Of a DNA stretch of 64,000 bases, positions 45,611-61,382 are shown piece after piece. Position 1 is the first letter of the stretch; each line of letters starts with the position of its first letter. Position numbers and translations under genes: made by a program. Origin of the DNA: Salinicola halimionae. GTDB taxonomy: Bacteria > Pseudomonadota > Gammaproteobacteria > Pseudomonadales > Halomonadaceae. The DNA is taken from assembly GCF_003206065.1 (NCBI RefSeq), contig NZ_PZJQ01000004.1, positions 556,864 through 620,863 on the forward strand, written 5' to 3'. The notes beneath the pieces were generated by a model. That model was not told the origin of the DNA. It saw nothing but the letters and a program-made list of their open reading frames with translations, and searched no databases.

Positions 45611-46942
<1,332 letters not shown>

Positions 46943-47032: not shown

Positions 47033-48235
47033 TCACTGAGGGTCTGGCATCGTCAGTGACAGTAGCGAGGTGGGTTTGGAAACCAAATCTTCCGTTCGTG
47101 TCCATTTGTTCACGAGGACGCCGGCGCGATGATCATCATCGAGTAGGTGATGACGCTGTGCCATCACCAGATTAGGCAGCGCGATGGCGGGGTGGAAGCC
47201 GTGCAGCTCCCGATACGGCCAAGCGTGGGGATTGGCCGCACGCTCGGCAATCCAGCGATAGGCCGCAGCGAGGCGTTCTCGATCCGCGTCACTGTCGGGC
47301 CAGCGCAGGCCGAGTGTCGATGACTCCTCGAGGAGTGTCGACCAGGCCTCGAGATTGAAATTGACGTAATGCCACGGCCGAGTGCGCGCCAACTCCAGCG
47401 GCTGGGCTCCGCCTTCTGCGATCTGCGTCGCTATCCGATGCGATGCGCTATGCAACTGACGCCCGGCCAGTGCCTGACGATCGACGAATCTGGCGAACGC
47501 CACGATCTGAGCGTCGTACCAGGTGCCGTGGTTGTTGCGTTTGGCATGTTCGTCCTGCCCATTCTTACTGGTCAGCATCCAGTCCAGATAATCGCTATAC
47601 CACTGTTTCAGCCCTTGCAGTGTTTCCACCGTCATCGCCGGTGCTGGCTCGAGCCGACGGATCGACTGTGCAAGCTCGATCAGCAGACGGCTTTCGATGA
47701 GTCCGATGCCGCGGCCGTCGATTCGCCCCGGTATGGCCTGGGCGTAGAGCAGGTTCGGTGCCATTCGGGTCTCGGACGTGATGAACCAATGGCGTAGCTG
47801 AGTGACGGCACGCTGAGCATATTCGCTGTCGTCGGTGAGACGATAGCGCCATGACAACGTGTTGACCGTATCGGTGAAATCGATCAGGCGCTGCTTGTCG
47901 GTCGCGTCTCCCCGTGTTGCCTGGTTGTATTCGCCGTCGCGCCGTTCGTAGGGGAGCCCTTCTGGGCAGTCCGGATCCGGCCACCAGTAGGGCGCGAAGC
48001 TGAAATAGTCGTGCGGATTACCACTGGCCGGCAGCTGCGTTTTGTCCGTGACGCTGTAGAGCGGAGTGTGCAGCTCGAGGGCGGCCTTGTGAATGACGGC
48101 CGAGGCCGCGACATTTGTCGCGGCCTCGGGGATTATCGATTTGGCCCATGCCGCTGGCGGCAAGAGCGACAGCGCCAGCGATGTGAACACGAATGTCAGA
48201 ACGCGGCGGCAATGGCTGCGAAGGTGGCGGATCAT
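47033..48235 (-). CDS. Alginate_lyase-domain (PL38-like) polyuronate lyase, exported
   Basis: This 400-residue periplasmic or secreted protein has a signal peptide (FVFTSLALSLLPPAAWA) and an alpha/alpha-toroid alginate-lyase domain. Signature segments are GNPHDYFSFAPYWWPDPDCP, GRIDGRGIGLIESRLL and KRNNHGTWYDAQ, which I associate with PL38, a family with reported alginate and beta-1,4-glucuronan lyase members (from memory). Asn-Asn-His and the Tyr after it are the likely catalytic cluster. Its ATG overlaps the stop of the Sel1 gene (ATGA), so it is the last gene of the operon. Likely role: trimming polymer or clearing periplasmic polymer. The substrate is inferred. Confidence 0.78.
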   Translation of the reverse strand: MIRHLRSHCRRVLTFVFTSLALSLLPPAAWAKSIIPEAATNVAASAVIHKAALELHTPLYSVTDKTQLPASGNPHDYFSFAPYWWPDPDCPEGLPYERRDGEYNQATRGDATDKQRLIDFTDTVNTLSWRYRLTDDSEYAQRAVTQLRHWFITSETRMAPNLLYAQAIPGRIDGRGIGLIESRLLIELAQSIRRLEPAPAMTVETLQGLKQWYSDYLDWMLTSKNGQDEHAKRNNHGTWYDAQIVAFARFVDRQALAGRQLHSASHRIATQIAEGGAQPLELARTRPWHYVNFNLEAWSTLLEESSTLGLRWPDSDADRERLAAAYRWIAERAANPHAWPYRELHGFHPAIALPNLVMAQRHHLLDDDHRAGVLVNKWTRTEDLVSKPTSLLSLTMPDPQ

Positions 48236-50991
48236 GTCGAAGAAGCATCGCCCGCGGCAGAGGCGACCTCCGGGTCTTCGAGCAGATCCTGCAGGGTTTC
48301 GATCGCGGTCTTGCTATTCCCTTCCATGACACCGTCCAGCCAGATCATCGCCTGCTGCTGATTGACGAACTCGACGCCACGAGTCTGCAGAAAGGCCTGG
48401 GCCAGCGAGAGGCTGGCGGACTGATGCCCTTGGCGCGCGGCATCGACCAGCAACTCGGCGCCCTTATGAGTATCGCGGGGGAGTACGTCGCCGCTCAGAT
48501 AGGCGCGGCCCAGCGTCGCTTCAGCACCAGCATGACCGGTGTCGGCCGCCGCCGTGAGTAGCTGCTTACCTCGTGCGATATCTTGCGTGATGCCGCCTTG
48601 CCCCTCGAGATAGGCTGCGCCTAAAGATGCCTGGGCGGAGACGTTACCGTTGTCGGCCGCGCGGGACAGCCATTCGACGGCTTGATCCGCATCCTGGCTG
48701 ACGCCATTGCCTTCGAGATAGGATTGCCCGAGCAGACGTTGGGCGTTGTCGTCGTCGCGTTGCGCTGCCTGAGTGAGATAGCGCACACCGCGCTCAGGGT
48801 CCTCGGCGACGCCATTGCCGTTGAGATACGCTTCGCCGAGGGTGACGCCAGCCGAGCCATGCCCGGCGTTGGCAGCCTGGGTCAGCAGTCTGACGCCGCG
48901 TTGCGGGTCGGCGGAAACCCCATCGCCGCTCAGCAGCATTTGGCCGAGATCGGCTTTGGCGCCAACATGGCCTGCGGCAACCGCGCGTTCGAAATAGCTG
49001 GCGGCACGCGACTTGTTGGCCCCGACGCCCAAGCCTTCGGCGTACATCCTGCCTAACGAAGCAGTCGCGCCCGGATGGCCTTCATCGGCGGCGCGCGTGA
49101 GCCATTTTCGGGCGCTGGCATAGTTGGCTCGTACACCCTCACCGCGCAGGTAGGCGCGGCCGAGATCCGCCATGGCAGGTACTTGGCCCATCTGGGCTGC
49201 GCGAATCAGATCATCGACATTGCCTTGCTCGCCGCTGGCACGATAGGTGCGTGCCAGCGCCTGCCGGGCAGAGGGGTGGCCGGCGCGAGCGGCACGTTGT
49301 AGCCAGAGCTCGGATCGGCTCAGATCCGGCGGCACACCGGTGCCGTCGCGATAGGCGCGGCCGAGTACGACCATGGCATAGGCATCGCCCTGATTGGCGG
49401 CCTCCTCGAGTAGCTTGACGCCCTGTTGGCTGGAACCGGGCAGCTTACCCTCGATATATCCTTGGCCGAGTCGCGTCTTGGAAGTCGTGTCTTCGGAATT
49501 CTGCTCGACGGCCTGGCTCAGCCACTGCTGGGCCTTGGCGGGATCGCGTTGGAGACCGACGCCATCCATGTAAGCGATCCCCAGAGTTCGGGCGGCGCCG
49601 CTCTGCTGTTGTTTGGCCGCCTCGCTCAGCAGTGACACTCCTCTCACCGGATCAGCCGGTGTGCCTTCTCCCTTGAGATAAGCTTCACCCAGACGTGCCG
49701 TGGCATAGGGATGCCCCAGCTTGTAGGCACGTTCGAGATATTCGACGCCGCGCTGCGGCTGCGCTTGAACCTTGTCACCGTCCAGGTAGACGTTACCCAG
49801 TAGCGCGAGCGCATAGGCGTCGTTCTTTTGCGCTGCGCTTTCCAGTAGCTGGATGCCACGCTGGGGATTCGCTGGCAGCACGTCGCCCACCAGGTAGGCC
49901 TGGCCCAGGCTTCGAGCGGCGTCGAGCTGGCCTCGCTCGGCGGCATTCGTCAGCCACTTTTCGGCAAGGCTCGGATTGGGCGTGACCCGGCCTTCACCTA
50001 GATAGGCTTGGCCTAACCAGTAGGCGGCATCGACGTTGCCGGATCCCGCGGCACGCTGAAGCATGTCCAGGCCTTTGGCGGGATCCCGCTGCTTGACCAG
50101 CAAACGCCCGGCAGCGGCCAGCGCTTGCGGGTCGCCGCTGTCGGCGGCTTGACTCAACCATTGCCGCTGGCGCTCCGGTTGCGGCAGCAAGCCGTCCTCG
50201 GCGTAGAGTCGCGACAAGGCGAGCATGGCACCCACATCGCCACCCTGGGCACGCGGTGTCATTGCCTGAGCATAACGCTCGGCATAGGCGTGAGACTGGC
50301 CCGGGTTGCTGTCGAACGCGCCACCGGTAGCGGTGTTTTCGGCTAATGCCTGCAAGGCGCGGGGCTCGTTCAGTGCCGCTGCCTGCTCGAGCTGTTCTCT
50401 CGCGGCATCGACATCGCGAGGGACGCCTTCGCCGGCCAGCTGCATCTCGGCGACTTCGATACGTGCGCTGGGGTTGCCATCGTGATCGATGGCCTGATGG
50501 AACAGATTCCACGCCAAAGCCGGGTCGCGCATGACGCCATCGCCGGTGCGATAGAGTCGGCCCAGCTTCAATGATGCATTGTCGAGGCCGCTGAAGTCGT
50601 AGGGAACGGCCTGGCGGTAGTAGTGCGCAGCCAACGTTGGATCGCGGGGTACGCCATCGCCATCGTCATAAATTCGCGCGAGTTCGTAGCTGGCTTCAGG
50701 GTGGGTTCTCGCCATCGGCTTGAGCAGCTCGATAGCCTTGAGGCTCTCGCCCTTGGCCTCTAGGCCGCGAATATATTCCACGCGGTTCCAATCGGTAGAG
50801 GGCATCGATTCGATGTAGTGATGCGCGAACAGCTCTCGGTCCTGGGCGGCAATCGGCTGCGTCTGATAGCTGCTCTGACCCGCGCAGGCGGTGAGCATGA
50901 TTACCGAGGCGAGGCCCAGCAGAAGGCGGTTGCCCGGGCGGCTTAGTGTCACTGGTAGTGCGTTACGAATCGAGTTGCGAGTCGTCGTCAT
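48232..50991 (-). CDS. Giant Sel1-repeat outer-membrane lipoprotein, AlgK-like
   Basis: This 919-residue lipoprotein has a lipobox LTAC near residue 36 (VIMLTACAGQ). Almost everything after it is Sel1-like TPR repeats of about 36 residues with the pattern ALLGNVYLDGDKV...A..YLERA; by length there could be around two dozen. Pseudomonas AlgK, the outer-membrane TPR scaffold of the alginate secretion complex, is about half this size. The position between lyase genes in an alg8-alg44 locus supports an AlgK-like scaffold role, perhaps guiding the polymer through the periplasm. No AlgE porin gene is adjacent. Near-identical repeat DNA makes copy-number change by recombination plausible. Confidence 0.82.
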   Translation of the reverse strand: MTTTRNSIRNALPVTLSRPGNRLLLGLASVIMLTACAGQSSYQTQPIAAQDRELFAHHYIESMPSTDWNRVEYIRGLEAKGESLKAIELLKPMARTHPEASYELARIYDDGDGVPRDPTLAAHYYRQAVPYDFSGLDNASLKLGRLYRTGDGVMRDPALAWNLFHQAIDHDGNPSARIEVAEMQLAGEGVPRDVDAAREQLEQAAALNEPRALQALAENTATGGAFDSNPGQSHAYAERYAQAMTPRAQGGDVGAMLALSRLYAEDGLLPQPERQRQWLSQAADSGDPQALAAAGRLLVKQRDPAKGLDMLQRAAGSGNVDAAYWLGQAYLGEGRVTPNPSLAEKWLTNAAERGQLDAARSLGQAYLVGDVLPANPQRGIQLLESAAQKNDAYALALLGNVYLDGDKVQAQPQRGVEYLERAYKLGHPYATARLGEAYLKGEGTPADPVRGVSLLSEAAKQQQSGAARTLGIAYMDGVGLQRDPAKAQQWLSQAVEQNSEDTTSKTRLGQGYIEGKLPGSSQQGVKLLEEAANQGDAYAMVVLGRAYRDGTGVPPDLSRSELWLQRAARAGHPSARQALARTYRASGEQGNVDDLIRAAQMGQVPAMADLGRAYLRGEGVRANYASARKWLTRAADEGHPGATASLGRMYAEGLGVGANKSRAASYFERAVAAGHVGAKADLGQMLLSGDGVSADPQRGVRLLTQAANAGHGSAGVTLGEAYLNGNGVAEDPERGVRYLTQAAQRDDDNAQRLLGQSYLEGNGVSQDADQAVEWLSRAADNGNVSAQASLGAAYLEGQGGITQDIARGKQLLTAAADTGHAGAEATLGRAYLSGDVLPRDTHKGAELLVDAARQGHQSASLSLAQAFLQTRGVEFVNQQQAMIWLDGVMEGNSKTAIETLQDLLEDPEVASAAGDASST

Positions 50992-51128
50992 GTGAATCTC
51001 TCCTTTTGGGTCAGGCCCGTCATTCGTCCCTGAAGCGGGCCATGAGTCGTCGTTTTTCGAGCCCGAGTGTCGCCACTGTCGCGTGAGCTATCCTGCCGAT
51101 AGCGAGCATCGGCACGGGTTTCGGGTGT

Positions 51129-51144
51129 CGGTATTCAAATACCG
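51129..51144. other. Palindrome in the lyase to Sel1 intercistronic gap
   Basis: CGGTATT and AATACCG flank a 2-base centre, 18 bases beyond the PL5 gene stop in the 170-bp gap. It could be an mRNA 3'-end or processing stem, or a dyad binding site. The rest of the gap holds nothing recognisable apart from a good ribosome site (GGAGAG) before the Sel1 gene. Confidence 0.4.
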
Positions 51145-51161
51145 GCGTTCAGATATGATGC

Positions 51162-52466
51162 TCAGGCGTCGGGCTCGAAAGTCGCGAGCTCTTTCTCATC
51201 GGGCTCCCGCAAGGCACGGGACTGGGCCTTGGGGTTCATGAAATAGAAGGTGACGTAGCCCCCGGCACTGCGATTGTCGATGGGGCGTTTCTGGCTGACG
51301 TAGTGAGAAACTCGCGAGTCGCTGCGATGACTGAGATAGATCTCCATCCAGGCGAGATACTGCTCGTCATCGAGAAAGCCGTAGTACTGCGCATGCGTTG
51401 CCATGTCACCCAGTGCGGCCGGATCGTCGAAGGTATCCAGCGCGAACTGAACGGCATCGTCGATGGTGTGGCCGTGATACTCGAAGTCGAACAGGTCGTA
51501 ACCCTGGCGAGAGGCCACCTGCATGATGTTGACTAGATAGAGCAATGCATAGTTCTGATAGTGGCTGGCACGTCTGCCACGCGCCATTTCATGCGGTAGA
51601 GCGCCACGCGGCGTCAGATCGTTGAGTGCCGAATAGATGGCGCTGATGCCGAACTGGAACAGCTCGTCGTCATCCGTCAGAACGCCGATCATGCTGGCGT
51701 ATAGGGCTCGGCGGTAGAAGTGGTTATTGCAACAGCTCGGGTCACCACCGCGGATGGACGAATGTTTGTGGGCCAGCGTGTTGAGCCAATGATTGATTCG
51801 CTCGATCGCCTCCGGACGTTTGGCCGCCACCGCGGGGCGCACGATCGAATAAGACATTGCGGCAGCAAACATCATCGATTCCGTCGAGTACCAGCCCTGA
51901 GGCTCGAGGCGGTTGTAGTAGAACTGGCTCAGCGCATCTTGCGTCGCCCACTTGTCCAGAAACTGAACCAGGCAGTCGGCGTAGTAATCGTCTCCGGAGG
52001 CGACATACGAACCGGCTAGATTCGATACGGTGTCCTCGAAATCGAACAGCGGCTCGGAAGCCAGTTCCCAGGCCTTGGGTTGTGGATAATAGCCGGGGAT
52101 CCGGATCACACTGTCCAGCGGCGGCTTGGACAGCTCCTGACGGCAGCTGGGGCCGTGCTTGAGCTGATCGCGGTTGTACTGCAGCAGATCGTTGTCGGTA
52201 CGTTGCAGCATCGCCATCCGTGCCTTGACGTCGAAATAGGACGCATCGGGATCGGTGACCGTGTACTCGGACAGATCGAGTTTCTGGCGCTGGGCGTAGC
52301 TCATCGTCGGATCTGTGGCAGCGGTCTTGTCTGCCGGAGCGGCCTCGTCTGTCTGGGACGACTGAGCGGCCTGAACCGACAGCGCCAGACTGAAAGTTGC
52401 GAGACCCAACAGCAGCCTGAAGCGGTGATGCAGGCCGAATCGGCCTGCGGATGACGTCCGGTTCAT
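51162..52466 (-). CDS. PL5-family (AlgL-type) polyuronate lyase
   Basis: This exported lyase of 434 residues has a signal peptide (FRLLLGLATFSLALSVQA) and an alpha/alpha-barrel PL5 domain. The catalytic region reads PSCCNNHFYRRALYASMIGV (compare NNHSYW in AlgL), followed by LPHEMARGRRASHYQNYALL, which matches the AlgL Arg/Tyr segment. In Pseudomonas, AlgL removes polymer trapped in the periplasm; PL5 members acting on polyglucuronate are known (Stenotrophomonas). The ATG at 52466 has GGGAG upstream; a GTG at 52499 overlapping the previous stop would add 11 residues before the signal peptide. A double Cys before the catalytic NNH is unusual. Confidence 0.85.
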   Translation of the reverse strand: MNRTSSAGRFGLHHRFRLLLGLATFSLALSVQAAQSSQTDEAAPADKTAATDPTMSYAQRQKLDLSEYTVTDPDASYFDVKARMAMLQRTDNDLLQYNRDQLKHGPSCRQELSKPPLDSVIRIPGYYPQPKAWELASEPLFDFEDTVSNLAGSYVASGDDYYADCLVQFLDKWATQDALSQFYYNRLEPQGWYSTESMMFAAAMSYSIVRPAVAAKRPEAIERINHWLNTLAHKHSSIRGGDPSCCNNHFYRRALYASMIGVLTDDDELFQFGISAIYSALNDLTPRGALPHEMARGRRASHYQNYALLYLVNIMQVASRQGYDLFDFEYHGHTIDDAVQFALDTFDDPAALGDMATHAQYYGFLDDEQYLAWMEIYLSHRSDSRVSHYVSQKRPIDNRSAGGYVTFYFMNPKAQSRALREPDEKELATFEPDA

Positions 52467-52495
52467 GAGAATCGACTCCCTGTCGAGAGGATGAA

Positions 52496-53398
52496 TCACC
52501 CCTTAGGGGTCATCAGAGTGAAGTCGGCAAAATCGACGGACTGATCTCGCGGGGTCCGCCAGTCACTGCCGTGGCCGCCGAAGAAGGTCGAGAACATCAG
52601 CCCGTCGATATGCACGTCGTCCGTGGTGCGATAGACGATGCCCTGTTGCTCGAGCGTCGGTTGCCCATTGATCCAGACGCGGGCAACGCCGTTTTCCTGA
52701 GCGGGATCGTTGAGCACGATTTCCTCTTCTACGGTCATCCACTGGCCCGGCGTGAAAAGCCAGCGGCCGCGGCCGACCGATTCGCCGTAGTCGCTGTCCT
52801 TGTTGACGACGTATTCATAAAGTTCGCCCTGACCCTGCTTGCGCCACATGAAGCGCATCGAGAAACCATTCTTGCCGGTGACCTCATCGCCGCCGGTAGG
52901 ACCATCGCCGCCATAGAGCCCCGGCAACTTGCCACCCTTGACGAAATCGAACCCGGCCGGAAAGCGCACCTGATAACGCAGGCAGGCACGATCGGCCTGA
53001 CGCAGCGCCGGCGCCGGCATCACGAAGCCGGCGCCGCCTTCTTCGGCGTCGCTGGGCGAGGAAGTTCCCTCGGGATAATTGACACGCAGCGCCGGAGCAT
53101 CGAGGCCACTTTCGGCACTGTCGAGTATCCGTAGATTCTGTTCACCCCAGCGGCGCTGGCCGCCGAGGCCGTCCTTGACCCATGCTTTGGGGTCGGATTT
53201 TGCATTCGCGCTCATGGCCATCGTCTGTACCGGCGCATAACGCGTCGAGCAGGCCGCGACCTGAGGCTGGGTCAGCGAACTGCTGCTCGCGGCCTGCGCG
53301 GGGAGGGAAGCCAGCGTCAATGCGCCGGCGGTCAGAACGGCCGCGCTCAGCGGGCGAATCAGGGAGTGTCGAGTTTTACCGAGTGTGGATAACGTCAT
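52496..53398 (-). CDS. PL14/PL20-type jelly-roll polysaccharide lyase, exported
   Basis: This 300-residue protein has a signal peptide (RPLSAAVLTAGALTLASLPAQA). The body is a beta-jelly-roll lyase domain recognised by FPAGFDFVKGGKLPGLYGG, MRFMWRKQGQGELYEYV, GRGRWLFTPGQWMTVEEEI and GLMFSTFFGGHGSDW, hallmarks of the PL14-like fold shared with PL20 glucuronan lyases. PL14/PL20 enzymes cleave alginate or beta-1,4-glucuronan. The ATG with GGAGA upstream starts the signal peptide; the frame is open further upstream through an 18-bp repeat array that I regard as non-coding. The Pseudomonas alg operon has no counterpart. Confidence 0.8.
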   Translation of the reverse strand: MTLSTLGKTRHSLIRPLSAAVLTAGALTLASLPAQAASSSSLTQPQVAACSTRYAPVQTMAMSANAKSDPKAWVKDGLGGQRRWGEQNLRILDSAESGLDAPALRVNYPEGTSSPSDAEEGGAGFVMPAPALRQADRACLRYQVRFPAGFDFVKGGKLPGLYGGDGPTGGDEVTGKNGFSMRFMWRKQGQGELYEYVVNKDSDYGESVGRGRWLFTPGQWMTVEEEIVLNDPAQENGVARVWINGQPTLEQQGIVYRTTDDVHIDGLMFSTFFGGHGSDWRTPRDQSVDFADFTLMTPKG

Positions 53399-53541
53399 GA
53401 TCGTCTCCTTGGCGATGTCCGTTTCGAGATCGGGCTCCGACGTGCTTTCCGGTCGAGCCGTGCTTTTCGATTGAACCGTGCTTGCCAATCTAGAAGGTGC
53501 GGTTTGGTCAACCGTGCTGATTGAACACGGCCGGCAATGGC
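53399..53541 (-). repeat. Five-unit 18-bp repeat array between alg44-like and lyase genes (53441-53530)
   Basis: On the plus strand CGTGCTTTCCGGTCGAGC (53441), CGTGCTTTTCGATTGAAC (53459) and CGTGCTTGCCAATCTAGA (53477) follow in exact 18-bp phase. A diverged unit lies at 53495, and CGTGCTGATTGAACACGG (53513) resumes the phase. The array sits in the leader of the jelly-roll lyase gene. Confidence 0.8.
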
Positions 53542-55011
53542 TCAATTCATCGCGCTTTTCATGCCCTCGGACGCGCGCCCCCATAACGACTGAACGCCTT
53601 GAGCCATGGCGCGCCCGGCCTGATAAGTCCATTCGGCGGCGGTGTCGAGCATCGGCGCTTCGGTAAAACGAACGTCGACCGGCGTTCCCACGGCACTGGC
53701 GGGCAGCGGCTTTTCCGGCACCAGTAGAACGCTCGCCACGTTCTGCTGTTGGCGGACCCAGTCCGGGAAGCCGGCACGCGGCTGACGCTCGACATCCAGC
53801 GCGACGCTGCGCACGCGGGCGGGAATCGGCTCCGAGGCGTTGGGCAGGGCGATGTAGGCCTTCTGATGGTTTTCGATATCGCCGATGTCATCCATGTGCA
53901 CCAGCGCCTCGACCATGATGTCGTTGTTGCTGGTGCTGACCAGCGTCATTACCCGGTCGCCTTCGTTGACGTAGGTACCGCCGGCGGCGCTGAGTGCCCA
54001 TGCCACTTCACACTCACACGGGCTGTAGATGGTGTTGGCGGAAACCCGCGATTTGTAGGCGTCGATGCGTGAGCTTTCGTAGTCCCGCGCGGTTTCGAAC
54101 TGCTCGACACGTGTCTTGGCGATCTTCGGTGACAGCGTCTCGTAGCCCAGCTCACCCTCCGCCGGATTGGAGGACGTTGCCACACTGACCTTGGCGCCGC
54201 CGGGATTGTCGAGACTCTTCTGCAGGTTATCGATCAGGCGCTTGTTGTAGTCGAACGAGGCCTGAGACAGCAGCAGATCGTTCTGCAGCTCGGCGTTGTT
54301 GACGTCGATCAGCGGCTGATCGCGCTCGACCTTGTCGCCGGCCTTGAGGTCGAGATCCTTCAGCTGGCCGGCGCCCGGCGCCAGAATGTCCGTACGCGGT
54401 GCGGTCACTGCGGCAAAGCTCGGCTCGATCAAAAAGACGTTGCGGTAGACCGTCGCGGCCACGGCGGCGGTCAATACGCCTGCTGCGACCAGCAGAGCCA
54501 GATAGCGGAACATCGGAATGCGACGCTTGGGTTTGGTGGCGGGAGTCGCCACGTTTGCGCGCCGTTTGCGCGGCGTCTGAGCGTCTTGCTGATCGACCAG
54601 ACCGTCGAGGCTGACGTGGCGTCCGCTCATCTGAGCGCGAATCACTCGTCGCAGGATGTCGCGCTGGCGGGTGTCCATCTGGGTGAATTCGAACGCGATG
54701 CGCTGGCGTCGGCCTTCGCCGATATCGCGCAGTGGGCGCGCCATGGCTGAGAGTGCCAACTCGACGCCGCTGGCTGTGAGCATCAGCGCAACCGGAATCT
54801 CGCGATGACGCTCAAGATGCATCGACGTCTCTGCGGAAAAACCGCCTATCGAGAGGTCATGACCCTTGACCACGCGGTCATCGCCCAGGCGCACGTTGAA
54901 GGGCATTTCGACACGAACGTGGTGACGTTCGTCGCGGCGCTCGTGGCGCAGCTGGTCCGGATCGTGCTGCGAATCGTTGTCGTTGTCCGAATTGTTGAAG
55001 TGATCTGACAT
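53542..55011 (-). CDS. alg44: Alg44-like c-di-GMP receptor with PilZ and membrane-fusion domains
   Basis: This 489-residue inner-membrane protein pairs with the synthase. After a hydrophilic Asp/Asn-rich start comes a cytoplasmic PilZ domain (about 22-125) with both c-di-GMP motifs: R29HHVR33 (RxxxR) and DLSIGG at 52-57. One membrane helix (FRYLALLVAAGVLTAAVAAT, about residue 170) leads to a periplasmic HlyD-like region with APGAGQLKDLDLKAGDKVER (lipoyl-type half-motif), a short hairpin and IYSPCECEVAWALSAAGGTY. This is the domain order of Pseudomonas Alg44, which gates alginate polymerisation on c-di-GMP binding. AAGGAG precedes the ATG, 27 bp behind the synthase stop. Confidence 0.87.
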   Translation of the reverse strand: MSDHFNNSDNDNDSQHDPDQLRHERRDERHHVRVEMPFNVRLGDDRVVKGHDLSIGGFSAETSMHLERHREIPVALMLTASGVELALSAMARPLRDIGEGRRQRIAFEFTQMDTRQRDILRRVIRAQMSGRHVSLDGLVDQQDAQTPRKRRANVATPATKPKRRIPMFRYLALLVAAGVLTAAVAATVYRNVFLIEPSFAAVTAPRTDILAPGAGQLKDLDLKAGDKVERDQPLIDVNNAELQNDLLLSQASFDYNKRLIDNLQKSLDNPGGAKVSVATSSNPAEGELGYETLSPKIAKTRVEQFETARDYESSRIDAYKSRVSANTIYSPCECEVAWALSAAGGTYVNEGDRVMTLVSTSNNDIMVEALVHMDDIGDIENHQKAYIALPNASEPIPARVRSVALDVERQPRAGFPDWVRQQQNVASVLLVPEKPLPASAVGTPVDVRFTEAPMLDTAAEWTYQAGRAMAQGVQSLWGRASEGMKSAMN

Positions 55012-55038
55012 GATGAAATCTCCTTGGTGTTCCCTGGC

Positions 55039-57000
55039 TTACTGGCGGTTCATGGCCAGCGCTTTCTCGTCCTTGTGGCTTTCGCCCAGTACCAGCGATA
55101 GATCCGTTAGCCGAATATCGTGACCGCCGACCTGAAGCTGGCACGGTTGCTGTGCTTCACACTGCAACCGGCCGGCGCTGGCGAGCGTGGTGTCTCCTGA
55201 CGTGATCTGCGTAGACAGGCCGGGGCCGATCTGCAGCCTCGTCGGGTGGTCTGGATCGCCATAGCCGTGAAGGCTGGCGCCGCGAATCCTATCCAGCGCC
55301 GCGACGTCGTCCTCAAAGCTTGCGTCGAGCCGATAGTCGCCGGCAGGTAGATGGATGCTGCCATCTTCCGGCGCATCGGCCAGCGTTAGCGCCAGCCAGC
55401 GGTTATCGCTGGCATTGTCCTCATCGGCCGCCTCCGGCTGCGCACCGACCATTGCCGCTACCGAAAGACGATCTGCCGGTGCCATGATTCCGCCGAAAAT
55501 GGCCAGAACGAATACCAGAATGCCGAAGTAGAGCGCGTGAATAAGATGGCCGCCGAGGCGCTGACGACGGGCTGCGCGAGGGTCATCCGGTTCGCCGGCG
55601 GAAATCCCCTGGCGAGACCAGGTCTGACGATTGAAGCGGAAACTGACCCAGGTCTTGAGAATTGCGCCGCTGAGCTGGTTGTAGTAGAGCATCGGCACCC
55701 AAAGCGCACTCCAGCGCCCCCGCTGCCACGCCAGTACCAAGCTGGTAATGCCGCGCGTCATCACGATCCACAACAGGTAGGCGAAGATAAATGATGGACG
55801 TACGAACAGCGTCAGCATCACCGCGATGGTCGGGCCAATCAGCGTGGTCCACATGGAAAGGCGCTGATCGACGAGACTCCACCAGGTAAACCAGCCCATG
55901 CGGCTCGGACCCAGCGCGATGGCGCGACCATTGGTGCGCAGCATGTTGCCGAACCAGCGGCGCATCAGATCCTGCGTCGATTTAAAGAATCGTCGACGCT
56001 CGGGTAACTCCTCGAAACCGGTCACGATGACATCGGGGATGTAGAGCATTTTCCAGCGATGCTTGAGCAGCCAGAACCAGGTCGACTTGTCATCCCCGGA
56101 AAGAAACTTGAAGTTGCCAAAGCGCCAGTGATCGACGTGATCGCTCTCGACCAGGTCGATGAATTCCGGTTCGGTGGCGATATCGGCTCGAAAGGCGCTG
56201 TAGCGACCGGTCAATACCAGCAGTCGTTCGGAAACCGAGGTCGAACTCATGACCAGGTGGCGTTGCGCGTAACGCAGGTCATACCACTCCTTGGTCACGT
56301 CATTGCCGATCACCACCGCGTTGTTATTGGTGGTAATCGCACCTAGATCGTCTTTGGCCAGAAAAAATGACAGTGAGCGTTCCAGCGTGCCGGGTTGAAT
56401 GCGGATGTCTCCATCCATGCTGACCAGCAGCGAACGATGGGTTGGCATGCAGCGAGAGATGGCACGCAGCACTTCGGCCATGGCTGAACGCTTGCCGTCC
56501 CCTTTCTGAAACATGTAGCGCACGCTGATGTTATCGGGCCAGCCGTGTTCTTCCATGACCTGATCGATGATGTCGACGTCGCTGCGATCGGCAATGGCGG
56601 CAAATAGCGTGGTCGGTACGTTGTAATCGGCGGCATCGCGGATCAGGGCGTCGTAAACGGCGAATGTGACCTCGGTATCGATGCGAAACGAGGTGCACAG
56701 GATATAGAGCGCGTCCGGCGTCTCGGTGGCACCGACGGCATCGGCCTCGGCGCGCAGCCGCGGGAACATCCGGCGGTTGTACCAGACCGAACGTAACGCC
56801 TGCACGAACCACCATGAGTAGCGCCAGGCGCCTATCAAGCCCACGGCGAAGATGAAGCTCTTCGAGCCTGGATGAAAAACCTCGCCCGGCAGGTGTGTCA
56901 CCAATAGCAGAACCAGCGTGGCAAGCAGCAACATGACCGTAATCTCGGTCGCTATTGACGCCTTGCTGGGTCTGGCTTGAGTGTAATTGATATGGCTCAT
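55039..57000 (-). CDS. alg8: Alg8-like processive family 2 glycosyltransferase with extra C-terminal periplasmic domain
   Basis: This is the membrane polymerase of the locus, 653 residues. The first about 490 align along their length with Alg8: LPGEVFHPGSKSFIFAVGLI, CTSFRIDTEVTFAVYDALIR, the donor/metal motif SMDGDIRI, LRYAQRHLVMSS, LTGRYSAFRAD, ESDHVDHWRFGNFKFLSGDD and the acceptor-site QDLMRRWFGN. Membrane helices lie near 20-65 and 390-470. Unlike Alg8 (about 494 residues), it continues with one more helix (ALYFGILVFVLAIFGGI) and about 140 periplasmic residues containing DGSIHLPAGDYRLDAS, which resembles the first coils of a beta-helix. The start has AAAGGA seven bases upstream inside a 12-bp repeat array. 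The sugar nucleotide used is probably UDP-GlcA, from the linked ugd. Confidence 0.87.
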   Translation of the reverse strand: MSHINYTQARPSKASIATEITVMLLLATLVLLLVTHLPGEVFHPGSKSFIFAVGLIGAWRYSWWFVQALRSVWYNRRMFPRLRAEADAVGATETPDALYILCTSFRIDTEVTFAVYDALIRDAADYNVPTTLFAAIADRSDVDIIDQVMEEHGWPDNISVRYMFQKGDGKRSAMAEVLRAISRCMPTHRSLLVSMDGDIRIQPGTLERSLSFFLAKDDLGAITTNNNAVVIGNDVTKEWYDLRYAQRHLVMSSTSVSERLLVLTGRYSAFRADIATEPEFIDLVESDHVDHWRFGNFKFLSGDDKSTWFWLLKHRWKMLYIPDVIVTGFEELPERRRFFKSTQDLMRRWFGNMLRTNGRAIALGPSRMGWFTWWSLVDQRLSMWTTLIGPTIAVMLTLFVRPSFIFAYLLWIVMTRGITSLVLAWQRGRWSALWVPMLYYNQLSGAILKTWVSFRFNRQTWSRQGISAGEPDDPRAARRQRLGGHLIHALYFGILVFVLAIFGGIMAPADRLSVAAMVGAQPEAADEDNASDNRWLALTLADAPEDGSIHLPAGDYRLDASFEDDVAALDRIRGASLHGYGDPDHPTRLQIGPGLSTQITSGDTTLASAGRLQCEAQQPCQLQVGGHDIRLTDLSLVLGESHKDEKALAMNRQ

Positions 57001-57007
57001 TGGAATG

Positions 57008-57068
57008 TCCTTTGAGTCGTCCCTTGAATCGACCCTGGAGTCGCTCCCTGCGTCCGAGATCCCGCTCG
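57008..57068 (-). repeat. Four to five 12-bp repeats, each with a Shine-Dalgarno-like core, ending at the alg8 start
   Basis: Read on the coding (minus) strand, the units are CGAGCGGGATCT, CGGACGCAGGGAG, CGACTCCAGGGT, CGATTCAAGGGA and CGACTCAAAGGA, then CATTCCA and the ATG. The last unit is the natural ribosome-binding site, and each preceding unit has a purine core of the same kind in 12-bp phase. The rest of the 167-bp ugd-alg8 gap (57069-57167) shows nothing clear. Confidence 0.8.
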
Positions 57069-57167
57069 GCAGGCACGACGTTCCTGTGGCCAGCGCGTTG
57101 GCGCTGGCTGAAACCGTGTGTGAAATCGGTGGCCGGCGGTCACTGATGCCGCCGGCGGAGACAGTCG

Positions 57168-58577
57168 TTACAGCGTGTAGGCGACGTTCGAACGGCCAAG
57201 CTTTGCTTGAGTTGCCGAGGCGGTGGCGTCGTTGTCGATCGGGATACGCAGCGAGTCGGCGCGGCCGACGGCGAAATAGAGCAGGCCAGCAGCACGCACG
57301 CTTTCCGGATTGAAAAGGTTGCGCCCGTCGATGATCGCCGGCGTGGCCAGTTGCTCGCGCAGACGGCGGAAGTCGACCGTGCGGAAGGCCTTCCATTCGG
57401 TACAGATGACCAGTGCATCGGCACCTGCCAGGGTGTCGTCGCGACGCTTTGTCAGCGTCAAATCGTCGCGTTCGCCGTAGATACGGTGACACTCCTTCAT
57501 CGCTTCCGGGTCATAGGCACGAACCTTGCCGCCTGCCGCCCAGATCGCTTCCATCAGCTCGCGGCTCGGGGCTTCGCGCATATCATCGGTATTGGGTTTG
57601 AAGGCCAGCCCCCACACGGCGATGGTCTTGCCTTGCAGGTCACCGTCCAGCGCCTGAAAAAGTTTGGTGAACAGGCTCGCCTTCTGGCGATAGTTGACCG
57701 CTTCCACGGCATTAAGTAGTTGTGCCTCGTAACCGACAGTGCTGGCGGTGCGGGCCAGGGCCTGGACGTCCTTCGGAAAACACGAGCCGCCGTAGCCACA
57801 GCCTGGATAGATAAAGCTGTAACCGATTCGCGGATCGCTGCCGATCCCCCGGCGCACGTTCTCGACGTCGGCGCCAAGACGCTCGGCCAGATTCGAGACT
57901 TCGTTCATGAAGCTGATCTTGGTGGCCAGCATGGCGTTGGCGGCATACTTGGTCAGCTCGGCGCTGCGAATGTCCATGAACATCAACTTTTCCTGGCGCC
58001 GGTTATACGGGGCATAACATTCGCGCATCAGCGGCTCGACGCGTGGAGAGTCGCAACCAATGATGATGCGGGCGCCCTGGGAGAAATCTTCGACCGCCGA
58101 CCCTTCCTTGAGGAATTCGGGGTTCGAGCAGACGTCGTACGGGATATCGACGTCGCGTTGATGGAGGCGCTGATTGATAGTGGCGGACACGCGATCTGCC
58201 GTACCTACCGGTACCGTGGATTTGTCGATGACCAGCTTGTACTCCTGCATATGCTCGGCAATGGTGTCGGCCACGCTGAGCACGTACTTGAGGTCGGCGC
58301 TGCCGTCTTCGTCCGGTGGGGTGCCTACGGCGATGAACTGCAGTGTACCGAAGCCGACCGCTTCAACCGGATCGGTCGTGAACAGTAACCGCTCTTCAGC
58401 CACGTTTTGCTTGACCAGCGTTTCCAGACCCGGCTCATAGATCGGCACGATGCCATTTTTAAGGCCGTTGATCTTGTCGCTGTCGACGTCCATGCACATG
58501 ACTTCGTGGCCGGCATCGGCGAGGCAGGTGCCGGTGACGAGACCCACATATCCCGTTCCAAAAATGGTGATCCGCAT
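57168..58577 (-). CDS. ugd: UDP-glucose 6-dehydrogenase
   Basis: Ugd oxidises UDP-glucose to UDP-glucuronate with two NAD. The 469-residue protein begins [20 protein letters not shown] (Rossmann motif) and shows [49 protein letters not shown] with the catalytic Cys, and [16 protein letters not shown]. These are UDP-glucose-type signatures; GDP-mannose dehydrogenase (AlgD) has a different Cys loop and NPEFLREGTA-type segment. An extra Ala/Thr-rich C-terminal tail of about 20 residues is present. AAGGAG precedes the ATG. It is the first gene of the polysaccharide locus, in the place algD occupies in Pseudomonas, and points to UDP-GlcA as precursor. Confidence 0.94.
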
Positions 58578-59354: not shown

Positions 59355-59831
59355 GTGCTGAAATTATCGAAGTTGACGGATTATGCGGCAGTAATCATGG
59401 CGCAGATCGCGCGTCAGTCGGACCAGGCGCATACGGCATCGGAACTGGCTCAACGCGTCCATCTGCCGCTGCCGACAGTGAGCAAGATGCTCAAGAAGCT
59501 GGCGAAGAGCGGGCTGCTGGAGTCGCGCCGGGGTTCTCATGGGGGGTACGTGCTGTCGCGGTCTCCGGTGGAGATCACGGCCAGCGATATTATTGCCGCC
59601 ATCGAAGGACCGATCGGTATGACGGAATGCAGCCATGCCGATGGAGATTGCGAGCTGTTGAATACCTGCGGCGTTGCCGACAATTGGCAACGTGTGTCGC
59701 AGGCGATACGCACGCTGCTGGATTGCGTGACGTTGGCGCATCTCGCGCAGTCCAATCCGATCAAGCTGCCCGTGCAGCTACCGATTCAGAGTGTGACGCT
59801 GCCAACGACGGCAGCGTCGCGCGAACATTAA
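59355..59831 (+). CDS. Rrf2-family SUF system Fe-S regulator
   Basis: This 158-residue winged-helix regulator of the IscR/SufR-like group starts (GTG) MLKLSKLTDYAAVIMAQIAR, with the recognition helix region LPLPTVSKMLKKLAKSGLLE, GSHGGYVLSRSP as wing and a cysteine cluster CSHADGDCELLNTC that likely binds an Fe-S cluster. It is first in the suf operon and probably senses cluster status to repress it, as IscR does for isc. A promoter with an IscR-like operator lies just upstream. No isc genes are in the window. Confidence 0.9.
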   Translation: MLKLSKLTDYAAVIMAQIARQSDQAHTASELAQRVHLPLPTVSKMLKKLAKSGLLESRRGSHGGYVLSRSPVEITASDIIAAIEGPIGMTECSHADGDCELLNTCGVADNWQRVSQAIRTLLDCVTLAHLAQSNPIKLPVQLPIQSVTLPTTAASREH

Positions 59832-59939
59832 GAGGGCGTGGCGAGGGAGAGCCGAGCGGCGGCAGTGAATTGCCTGATCGTGCCGGTGTCCGAGATCGCG
59901 TCTTCGTCATAAGACTCTCTGTGGAGAGGAGTGAAGACC

Positions 59940-61382
59940 ATGGCTAGCGAAGAGATGGAGCAGTTGGTCCGTCGCGAATACAAGCAAGGATTCGTGACCG
60001 ACATCGAAAGCGATACCGTGCCGCCGGGCCTTGATGAAAGCACCATTGCTTTCATTTCCCAGAAAAAGGGAGAGCCCGAGTGGATGCTCGAGTGGCGTCT
60101 CGAGGCTTACTATCAGTGGCTCAAGATGACGACGCCGTCCTGGGCGCATCTGGAATATCCACCGATCGACTATCAGGCGATCTCCTATTTCAGTGCGCCG
60201 AAAAAGCCCGAGGACCGACCCCAGAGTCTGGACGAGGTCGATCCCAAGCTGCTTGAAACCTACGAGAAGCTGGGTATCCCGCTACACGAGCGCGCAGCGC
60301 TGGCAGGGGTTGCCGTGGATGCGGTGTTCGACTCCGTCTCGGTGACGACGACCTTCAAGGAGAAGCTCCATGAAGCGGGCGTTATCTTCTGCTCCATCTC
60401 AGAAGCGATTCGTGAATATCCGGAGCTGGTACGCCAGTATCTAGGCACCGTCGTACCGCAGGCGGATAACTATTTCGCCGCGCTCAATTCGGCGGTCTTC
60501 ACCGACGGCTCCTTCGTCTACGTGCCGGAAGGCGTGAAATGTCCGATGGAGCTTTCCACCTACTTCCGGATCAATGCTGCCAACACCGGTCAGTTCGAGC
60601 GCACCTTGATCGTCTGCGACAAGCGGGCGCAAGTCTCCTATCTCGAAGGTTGTACCGCGCCGCAACGCGATGAAAATCAGCTGCATGCGGCAGTAGTCGA
60701 GCTAGTGGCCCTCGAGGACGCCTACATCAAGTACTCCACGGTGCAAAATTGGTATCCGGGAGATGAGAACGGCAAGGGCGGTATCTATAACTTCGTGACC
60801 AAGCGTGGCGATTGTCGCGGTGATCGCTCCCGCATCAGCTGGACGCAGGTCGAGACCGGTTCGGCGATTACCTGGAAGTATCCATCCTGCATGTTGCGCG
60901 GCAAGGAGAGTGTCGGCGAGTTCTACTCGGTCGCCGTCACCAATGGGCGCCAACAGGCCGATACCGGCACCAAGATGATCCATATCGGCGAAAACACGCG
61001 TTCGACCATCGTCGCCAAGGGGATCGCCGCCGGCCGTAGCGATCAGGCCTATCGCGGTCTGGTCAAGATCGGCCCACGAGCCAAGGGCGCGCGCAACTAC
61101 ACCCAGTGCGATTCACTGCTGATCGGCGATCAGTGCGGGGCGCACACGTTTCCCTATCAGGAAATCGGCAATAGCACCGCGACTGTCGAGCACGAGGCGA
61201 CTACCTCCAAGATCGCCGACGACCAGCTCTTCTACTGCCGTGCGCGTGGCATCGATGAGGAGGATGCCGTGAGCATGATCGTCAACGGTTTCTGCAAGGA
61301 TGTCTTCCAGGAGCTGCCGATGGAGTTTGCGGTCGAGGCTGAAGCGCTGCTCAACGTGACGTTGGAAGGCTCGGTGGGCTGA
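59940..61382 (+). CDS. sufB: Fe-S cluster scaffold subunit SufB
   Basis: SufB is the scaffold on which the SufBC2D complex builds Fe-S clusters. The 480-residue protein shows [20 protein letters not shown], a C-terminal beta-helix with [21 protein letters not shown], the cluster/sulfur-relay Cys in [15 protein letters not shown], and [21 protein letters not shown] start at the ATG 59940, 10 bases behind GGAG; a GTG at 59931 is too close to that site. Separated from the regulator by 108 bp and from sufC by 75 bp with two hairpins. Confidence 0.96.

Follow-up and report, generated by a model that had tools for sequence, protein, structure and literature searches.

Which polymer is made by an alginate-like gene cluster that opens with a UDP-glucose dehydrogenase instead of a GDP-mannose dehydrogenase (GMD)? 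The question is raised by a locus of Salinicola halimionae located in a 64,000-nucleotide stretch of contig NZ_PZJQ01000004.1 (the window, always at its full length), where seven genes occupy positions 47033-58577 of the minus strand: ugd, an alg8-like and an alg44-like gene, genes for a PL14-family and a PL5-family polysaccharide lyase, one for a Sel1-repeat lipoprotein and one for a PL38-like lyase. An initial annotation of the window had described seven genes of these families in a single direction, what is borne out by the coordinates, Pfam and the closest solved structures, and had proposed that they polymerise UDP-glucuronate under the control of cyclic di-GMP (c-di-GMP) into a non-epimerised, non-acetylated polymer. 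As a whole that interpretation is partly supported. We consider that the locus is probably an alginate-type synthase system using UDP-glucuronate, with a homopolymer, polyglucuronate, as its predicted product, the likeliest form being a plain glucuronan with 1,4 linkage; we infer the identity, linkage, regulation and export of the polymer from sequence.

Sugar donor and synthase signature

The first gene of the operon (57168..58577, minus strand, 469 aa) codes for a UDP-glucose 6-dehydrogenase (UGD) that matched PF03721, PF00984 and PF03720, with 2y0e as the closest solved structure by sequence. Both the UGD domains and the active-site Cys motif are present, and the motif differs from the one of the reference alginate-locus GMD, GFAFGGSCLPKD. 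By its family assignment, the enzyme would oxidise UDP-glucose to UDP-glucuronate. The second gene (55039..57000, minus strand, 653 aa) codes for the Alg8-like processive synthase, a GT2 protein by its match to PF13641 that is 34-38% identical to the Alg8 of four alginate loci and had no match at E 0.01 to any chain in a search of solved-structure sequences. The halomonad sequences formed one clade (17 rows, support 100/100) in a maximum-likelihood tree built from 58 synthases, and together with the synthases of genomes G796 and G1016 a 19-row clade (100/96), with all 30 GMD-linked rows outside. Outside this UGD/GalU clade, wherever a dehydrogenase could be recognised near the synthase it is a GMD, with the exception of locus L047, and the GMD-type loci often also carry ManC, AlgG, AlgX and AlgI/J.

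Eight positions passed a filter separating the 19 rows of the UGD/GalU clade from the 30 GMD-linked ones, and these class-separating positions adjoin the conserved GKR, TTN and TGR motifs. One of them is S172 (codon at 56485-56487, minus strand) and three others, N226, L260 and V262 (codons within 56215..56325, minus strand), were followed in 262 loci with a synthase, corresponding to 181 distinct rows, part of which had not been used in defining the signature and many of which are close relatives. Among synthases with a GMD neighbour, 70 had E/V/T and one E/I/T at these positions (E226/T262 in 71/71), and among those with a UGD neighbour 72 had N/L/V, L047 included, and one N/Q/V (N226/V262 in 73/73 readable rows; five further rows were cut short and not fully readable). 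The single row with a GalU neighbour had N/L/V and three rows with only ManC had E/V/T, while the rows without a dehydrogenase in the stretch were divided into 19 E/V/T, seven N/L/V and two N/V/C. No readable row crosses between the dehydrogenase class and the residue class. The intermediate N/V/C signature belongs to a small group of synthases (L095 and L074), the first of which adjoins what we take to be RND efflux-type genes.

GMD genes were recognised through PF03721 matches, followed by comparing the identity to UGD and GMD references. In the genome of the host (99.99% complete) there were seven such matches, and none of the four that could be classified was a GMD; the other three were short and scored 21-28 bits. 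The four comprised the UGD of the operon and another one that is 70% identical to it, as well as an E. coli-type UGD-like protein (NF011631, 697 bits with a cut-off of 757) and a protein with 36% identity to UGD. The initial annotation had named a requirement for a GMD elsewhere in the genome as evidence that would go against a glucuronate polymer; we looked for one and recognised none. Counting the host genome (G000), no GMD was recognised by the same search in G000, G009, G007, G029, G039, G021, G796 and G1016, nor in G1428, G127 and G706 among PF03721 matches to E 1e-12, and so in none of 11 genomes with a synthase lacking E/T, whereas the two control genomes with E-type synthases (G1374 and G1433) had one GMD each, 48-49% identical to the reference and with 171-172 bits against PF03721. 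The UGD in the operon, the lack of a recognised GMD, the separate clade and the residue split together support, without proving it, that UDP-glucuronate rather than GDP-mannuronate is the substrate, as the initial annotation had suggested.

In a distant member of the clade, the Maritalea genome G796, galU is found directly upstream of alg8-alg44-PL5 (TIGR01099 337.9 bits, cut-off 326.8, with a second GalU model staying under its own cut-off), and a UGD gene lies ~20 kb and a PL38-like domain ~9 kb from the locus. A synthase match was found in 26 of 346 genomes of the family of G599, probably Rhizobiaceae to judge by its Rhizobium-like synthase; one of them, G1428, carries an alg8-alg44-PL5 locus whose synthase is N/L/V (L311, C42:50500-70400), and in another, G1250, the residues were not readable. 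L047, in G127, was rejected as an independent UGD-linked locus: its UGD gene is separated from the synthase operon by unrelated genes, there are no lyase genes nearby, and it is marked as having no neighbour on the tree.

The synthase ends in a C-terminal extension of ~135 residues (~residues 518-653; 55042..55449, minus strand). The C-terminus is long in 71 of the 88 halomonad-type rows and short in 17, some loci having been fetched twice. A search with the extension against the reading frames of the loci gave 65 matches, and the first 59, which were checked, were all synthases. Its stretch DGSIHLPAGDYRL gave us the impression, and only that, of a beta-helix opening.

A conserved core of six genes

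The search for the gene order that the initial annotation had recommended was done by a scan of named genomes, which took the best 80 of at least 540 relatives and provided 79 loci, favouring those near the query. The order ugd-alg8-alg44-PL14-PL5-Sel1 was found in 66 of the 79, with some genes doubled or split; given this bias to close relatives, the proportion cannot be read as a frequency among bacteria at large. Since the six-gene order recurs in so many loci, the association of the genes is not due to chance. Of the other 13 loci, four were cut at contig ends (L173, L180, L216, L217), one had a rearranged order (L167), three were smaller relatives (L222, L225, L228) and five alginate-like or ungrouped (L230, L231, L233, L234, L235). 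The PL38-like gene appeared in only 10 of the 79, and directly after the Sel1 gene, as in the window, in five. The conserved core is then made of six genes, and of the seven-gene set originally described the PL38-like gene is an add-on.

The window synthase is 89% identical to that of S. salarius, in agreement with the placement of the host near Salinicola, and synthase matches were found in 31 of the 146 genomes searched as relatives (its own included) and in 10 of 18 of its own genus. In the named scan the locus was also found in Halomonas, Billgrantia, Modicisalibacter, Litchfieldella, Onishia and Franzmannia. Sixteen halomonad loci were fetched at ~20 kb; alg8-alg44-PL14-PL5-Sel1 was present in all 16 and ugd in 15, and the genome of the ugd-less one (G029) encodes elsewhere a UGD 75% identical. 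On one side the locus of the window is bounded by a gene that we take to be purA-like (45611..46942, plus strand) and on the other by presumed IscR/SufR-like regulator and sufB-like genes (59355..61382, plus strand), the latter flank being common to part of the relatives only; both flanks were named from their sequences alone. Two second copies lacking the purA flank (L210 and L212) have the same six genes and nothing else common to both. The G+C content of the locus (57-64%) is not distinct from that of its flanks (57-61%). Furthermore, Caenispirillum salinarum (L167) has a synthase 65% identical and all six core genes, with ugd in another position, what suggests that the six-gene unit may have been transferred between lineages.

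Some loci carry additional genes. A second PL14-PL5 pair follows the Sel1 gene in L188, L190, L192, L193 and L232. Near the synthase of the Maritalea locus, which belongs to this clade, there is an RTX-repeat protein with Beta_helix/NosD domains (L093, 13649-16009), and the Caenispirillum locus has another one with a CBM_2 domain and an adjoining ABC transporter (L167, 6268-9453). We can only speculate that these two proteins might be secreted polymer modifiers, perhaps a polyglucuronate C5-epimerase.

Control, lyases and export: weighing the alternatives

The alg44-like gene (53542..55011, minus strand, 489 aa) codes for a protein with an N-terminal PilZ domain (PF07238, 26.6 bits, cut-off 22.5) followed by a HlyD/membrane-fusion domain (PF13437, HlyD_3). 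The PilZ region R25xxxR29 ... D52xSxxG57 (54841..54939, minus strand) corresponds to the motif of c-di-GMP binding (PMC8461298; this and the other papers are cited by their PubMed Central numbers and for the sections available), and each of its residues is kept in between 69 and 72 of the 74 rows of Alg44-like proteins. The protein combines in this way the two domains and the conserved motif that identify an Alg44 co-polymerase, and the c-di-GMP control of the synthase, already anticipated by the initial annotation, is supported although not proven. By homology, c-di-GMP would bind the PilZ domain and activate the synthase, which would polymerise UDP-glucuronate and thread the chain into the periplasm. 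In L311 a GGDEF-EAL gene lies two genes upstream of the synthase; this locus also encodes a small protein that matches BcsS below the threshold.

Three different lyases accompany the synthase. Their CAZy labels were deduced from Pfam and the nearest structures, without a CAZy model, and gene starts (chosen among ATG codons), signal peptides and the lipobox were assigned by visual inspection across the locus. The first lyase (52496..53398, minus strand, 300 aa, with a signal-peptide-like N-terminus) had been called PL14/PL20-like; it matched PF21294 (Polysacc_lyase_14) with 223 bits, above the cut-off, and has 5gmt as the closest solved structure by sequence, and we keep only the label PL14 because PF14099 remained below its cut-off. 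Its stretches GGKLPGL, FSxRxMW and GELYxY are conserved among 76 rows. The PL5-family lyase (51162..52466, minus strand, 434 aa), in the position of AlgL, and the PL38-like one (47033..48235, minus strand, 400 aa) both match PF05426, with 137 and 253 bits. The closest solved structure to the PL5 protein is A1-III (1hv6), and its residues N248, H249, R296 and Y303 align with N191/H192/R239/Y246 of A1-III, which are described as catalytic or ligand-contacting (PMC8829089). These four PL5 residues are conserved in 82 of 84 rows, with a gap in one of the remaining rows and an X in the other; where A1-III has W195, the halomonad PL5 has R252. The PL38-like protein resembles 3nfv and 8bdq, presumably PL38 structures, along most of its sequence, and its stretches NNH and RTRPWHY are conserved in 10/10 rows. 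With these residues and stretches conserved, the three lyases look active. AlgL clears polymer from the periplasm (PMC8829089); similarly, the PL5 lyase may clear stranded periplasmic polymer and the PL14 and PL38-like ones may trim, release or recycle the chains. In the same genus, genome G003 has, without a synthase, two long PF05426 proteins close together (C20:307478-315163; L268, L276) that are 36-38% identical to the PL38-like protein, perhaps in a locus for polyuronate use.

The lyase families permit a glucuronan and do not require it. The PL38 enzyme CUL-I is a glucuronan lyase inactive on alginate, and TpPL38A is also a glucuronan lyase (PMC9029943), while the PL5 enzyme Smlt1473 accepts poly-glucuronate, poly-mannuronate and hyaluronate (PMC11784403). 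They cannot be taken as proof because members of PL5 and PL38 cut alginate and PL14-like genes adjoin E-type synthases. We tried PL14 as a marker of glucuronan loci and dropped it, since it is found in L100, with an E-type synthase, and in L149, with a GMD.

The activity of Smlt1473 on hyaluronate, together with that of an Akkermansia PL38 on glycosaminoglycans (PMC11790493), leaves some room for a synthase that alternates UDP-glucuronate with a second UDP-sugar and makes a glycosaminoglycan-like copolymer. A single GT2 hyaluronan synthase is indeed able to make a two-sugar polymer. We regard this as unlikely: Alg8/Alg44 make alginate as a mannuronate homopolymer (PMC9734138), and we saw no second sugar-nucleotide gene conserved in the loci.

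The sixth gene (48232..50991, minus strand) codes for a 919-aa lipoprotein with the lipobox LTAC36 in the position of AlgK. It matched Sel1 repeats (PF08238, 361 bits, 14 stretches), its match to AlgK being driven by the repeats (151 bits, far under the cut-off of 700), and the AlgK-like references of alginate loci have only ~440-490 aa. The Sel1 lipoprotein might act, in the place of AlgK, as a periplasmic/outer-membrane guide. Synthase-dependent exopolysaccharide systems under c-di-GMP control are made of a GT2 synthase, a c-di-GMP receptor, a periplasmic enzyme, a tetratricopeptide-repeat (TPR) outer-membrane protein and a beta-barrel (PMC9734138). Here counterparts of the first three are present and Sel1 repeats stand for the TPR, but the beta-barrel was not found. 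Single-sequence searches recognised no homologue of AlgE, AlgG, AlgX, AlgI, AlgJ, AlgF or ManC in the halomonad loci examined. The initial annotation had not addressed the missing outer-membrane exporter. Its prediction of a non-epimerised, non-acetylated polymer has support at the level of the locus only, where AlgG, AlgI, AlgJ and AlgF were searched; elsewhere in the genome (G000) there is a partial ALGX-family match (31 bits, cut-off 26.5), with another one in G009 and none in five other genomes.

Export is also where a different fate for the same polymer has to be considered. The glucuronan could stay in or at the cell envelope, with no dedicated exporter, and the three lyases would turn over an osmotic or envelope polymer of halophiles, an idea that overlaps with secreted polyglucuronate and is not exclusive of it. 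It fits with the signal-peptide-like N-termini of the three lyases and with the lack of a recognised AlgE homologue in the locus, in L210 and L212 and in the Caenispirillum copy, with no further common gene; there was also no match to PF13372, the AlgE model, in G000. However, exporters are hard to detect by sequence, and this last result is weak evidence because the same model, of limited sensitivity, missed the AlgE-like protein encoded in L048, an alginate locus of G138. Moreover, G065 and G029, both with the locus, carry a PF13372 match away from it, and an unlinked exporter is possible, the search having covered the AlgE type and not the BcsC and PgaA types. We consider a polymer retained in the envelope doubtful.

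Less probable still is an ordinary mannuronate alginate, in which an enzyme that escaped recognition would provide the GDP-mannuronate and the UGD would serve another glycan. The homology to Alg8, Alg44 and AlgL and the AlgK-like repeats agree with it, and the name of atypical alginate operons has been given to loci without algKE and without modification genes (PMC7112194), but the GMD result in the 11 genomes and two controls, the separate clade with fixed residue differences and the lack of recognised ManC, AlgG, AlgX, AlgI and AlgJ in the halomonad loci argue against it. A glucan built from UDP-glucose or from some other neutral UDP-sugar, with the lyases or UGD acting on side groups or unrelated glycans, draws on the galU without adjacent ugd in Maritalea and on G1016 (no galU or ugd in its 20-kb stretch and no UGD in the genome), and is just as improbable, given that PL5 is kept in the members of the 19-row clade with enough flank and also in L222 and L311, with intact catalytic residues where aligned (the long-branched sister L047 has no PL5), and that ugd comes first in the halomonad operons and lies ~20 kb away in Maritalea.

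Several observations weigh against polyglucuronate as the product. G1016, with an N-type synthase, had no UGD recognised anywhere in a genome 83% complete. UGD serves other glycans too, and the host genome has further UGDs. In genomes with N-type synthases, the dehydrogenases of L243, L251, L256, L257, L262 and L323 are slightly nearer to the GMD reference than to the UGD one, being only 25-30% identical to the reference, and PF03721 matches of ~31 bits or less were classified only in part. Conversely, no GMD was recognised in G460 (79% complete), which has an E-type synthase, and therefore GMD detection or linkage is imperfect. As for the synthases, only eight positions separate the classes, and any part that these play in binding the sugar or the nucleotide is putative; L047 was counted as a UGD neighbour in the residue table despite its UGD lying outside the operon; and the place on the tree of L093 (G796) and L047 (G127) is less sure because of their long branches. 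The link between residues and dehydrogenase goes back to a single switch, or two at the most, along the tree; the rows therefore do not count as independent cases, and the residue table is a consistency check and not a statistical test. The lyases add that the PL38 enzyme Aly38A acts on alginate (PMC9029943), that PL5 enzymes have been described as mannuronate-specific (PMC11784403), that in L100 (G460) a PL14 gene immediately adjoins an Alg44-like gene and the gene of an E-type synthase, and that L149 (G1040) has a 600-aa PL14-like protein inside a GMD locus. Finally, no AlgE-type exporter was recognised with PF13372, a model of limited sensitivity.

Known systems and meaning of the locus

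The alginate system of Pseudomonas and Azotobacter (algD-8-44-K-E-G-X-L-I-J-F-A) shares with the locus the Alg8-like GT2 enzyme, the PilZ/HlyD Alg44-like protein, a PL5 as AlgL and a repeat lipoprotein as AlgK. In the locus, by contrast, there is a UGD instead of the GMD, there are extra PL14 and PL38-like lyases, none of AlgE, AlgG, AlgX, AlgI, AlgJ and AlgF was recognised, the repeat lipoprotein is about twice as long and the synthase belongs to another clade, with N226/L260/V262 instead of E/V/T. We do not class the locus as an alginate system, though it works like one, because the GMD that defines such systems was looked for and not recognised. The atypical alginate operons described in 2020 (PMC7112194) are also alginate-like and without algKE and modification genes, but they are presented as alginate variants of deep-sea bacteria, with no change of sugar donor in the sections available and with Halomonas unmentioned in the whole text.

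BcsA/BcsB cellulose synthase and class I hyaluronan synthases are also processive GT2 enzymes using UDP-sugars. BcsA is controlled by PilZ and c-di-GMP (PMC8461298), but in our locus PilZ is on a separate Alg44-like protein and the synthase lacks the solved-chain match mentioned above; a BcsB search of the host genome shows only a separate cellulose-type locus. The Pap cluster of Pseudomonas ogarae/fluorescens F113 shares an acidic polysaccharide predicted from the UDP-glucose dehydrogenase PapA, but it is a 16-gene heteropolysaccharide cluster without a typical c-di-GMP-binding domain (PMC7716237), and we rejected it as the same system by its different gene set (PMC7716237, PMC10850567).

Also close are the glucuronans of Sinorhizobium meliloti M5N1CS and Peteryoungia rosettiformans, polyglucuronates like the one predicted here, which are acetylated and in S. 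meliloti accompanied by a glucuronan lyase; in 2023 the genes or loci for bacterial glucuronan biosynthesis were stated to remain unknown (PMC10180729). Among 14 plasmid records with an Alg8 match, chromosomes not being included, there was no Sinorhizobium. The rhizobial megaplasmid loci L057, L058 and L059 were rejected as glucuronan loci: they look alginate-like because they have a GMD and AlgG-like genes, and GMD-linked synthases are E-type. These three Rhizobium loci have an AlgG-like protein of 1246-1255 aa and large Sel1 or Sel1-like proteins.

In agreement with the initial annotation, we found no description of this gene set in the open-licence PubMed Central literature, although it may be described elsewhere, and the available sections of two papers on Salinicola genomes and on another halophile (PMC5518125, PMC7892980) have nothing on the locus. 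It is tempting to go further and propose for Proteobacteria a distinct, horizontally transferable class of polyglucuronate synthases, parallel to alginate, with N226/L260/V262 and a minimal alg8-alg44-PL5 core, which in halophiles, without an AlgE-type exporter, would make a glucuronan of the envelope that three lyases turn over, but in this complete form the proposal is a long shot. More directly, the locus is a concrete candidate for the genes of glucuronan biosynthesis, present in many halophile genomes. The signature of its synthase provides a starting point for understanding what makes an Alg8-type enzyme take GDP-mannuronate or UDP-glucuronate, as well as a means to re-annotate loci that otherwise are read as alginate, and might open a possible route to designed polyuronates.

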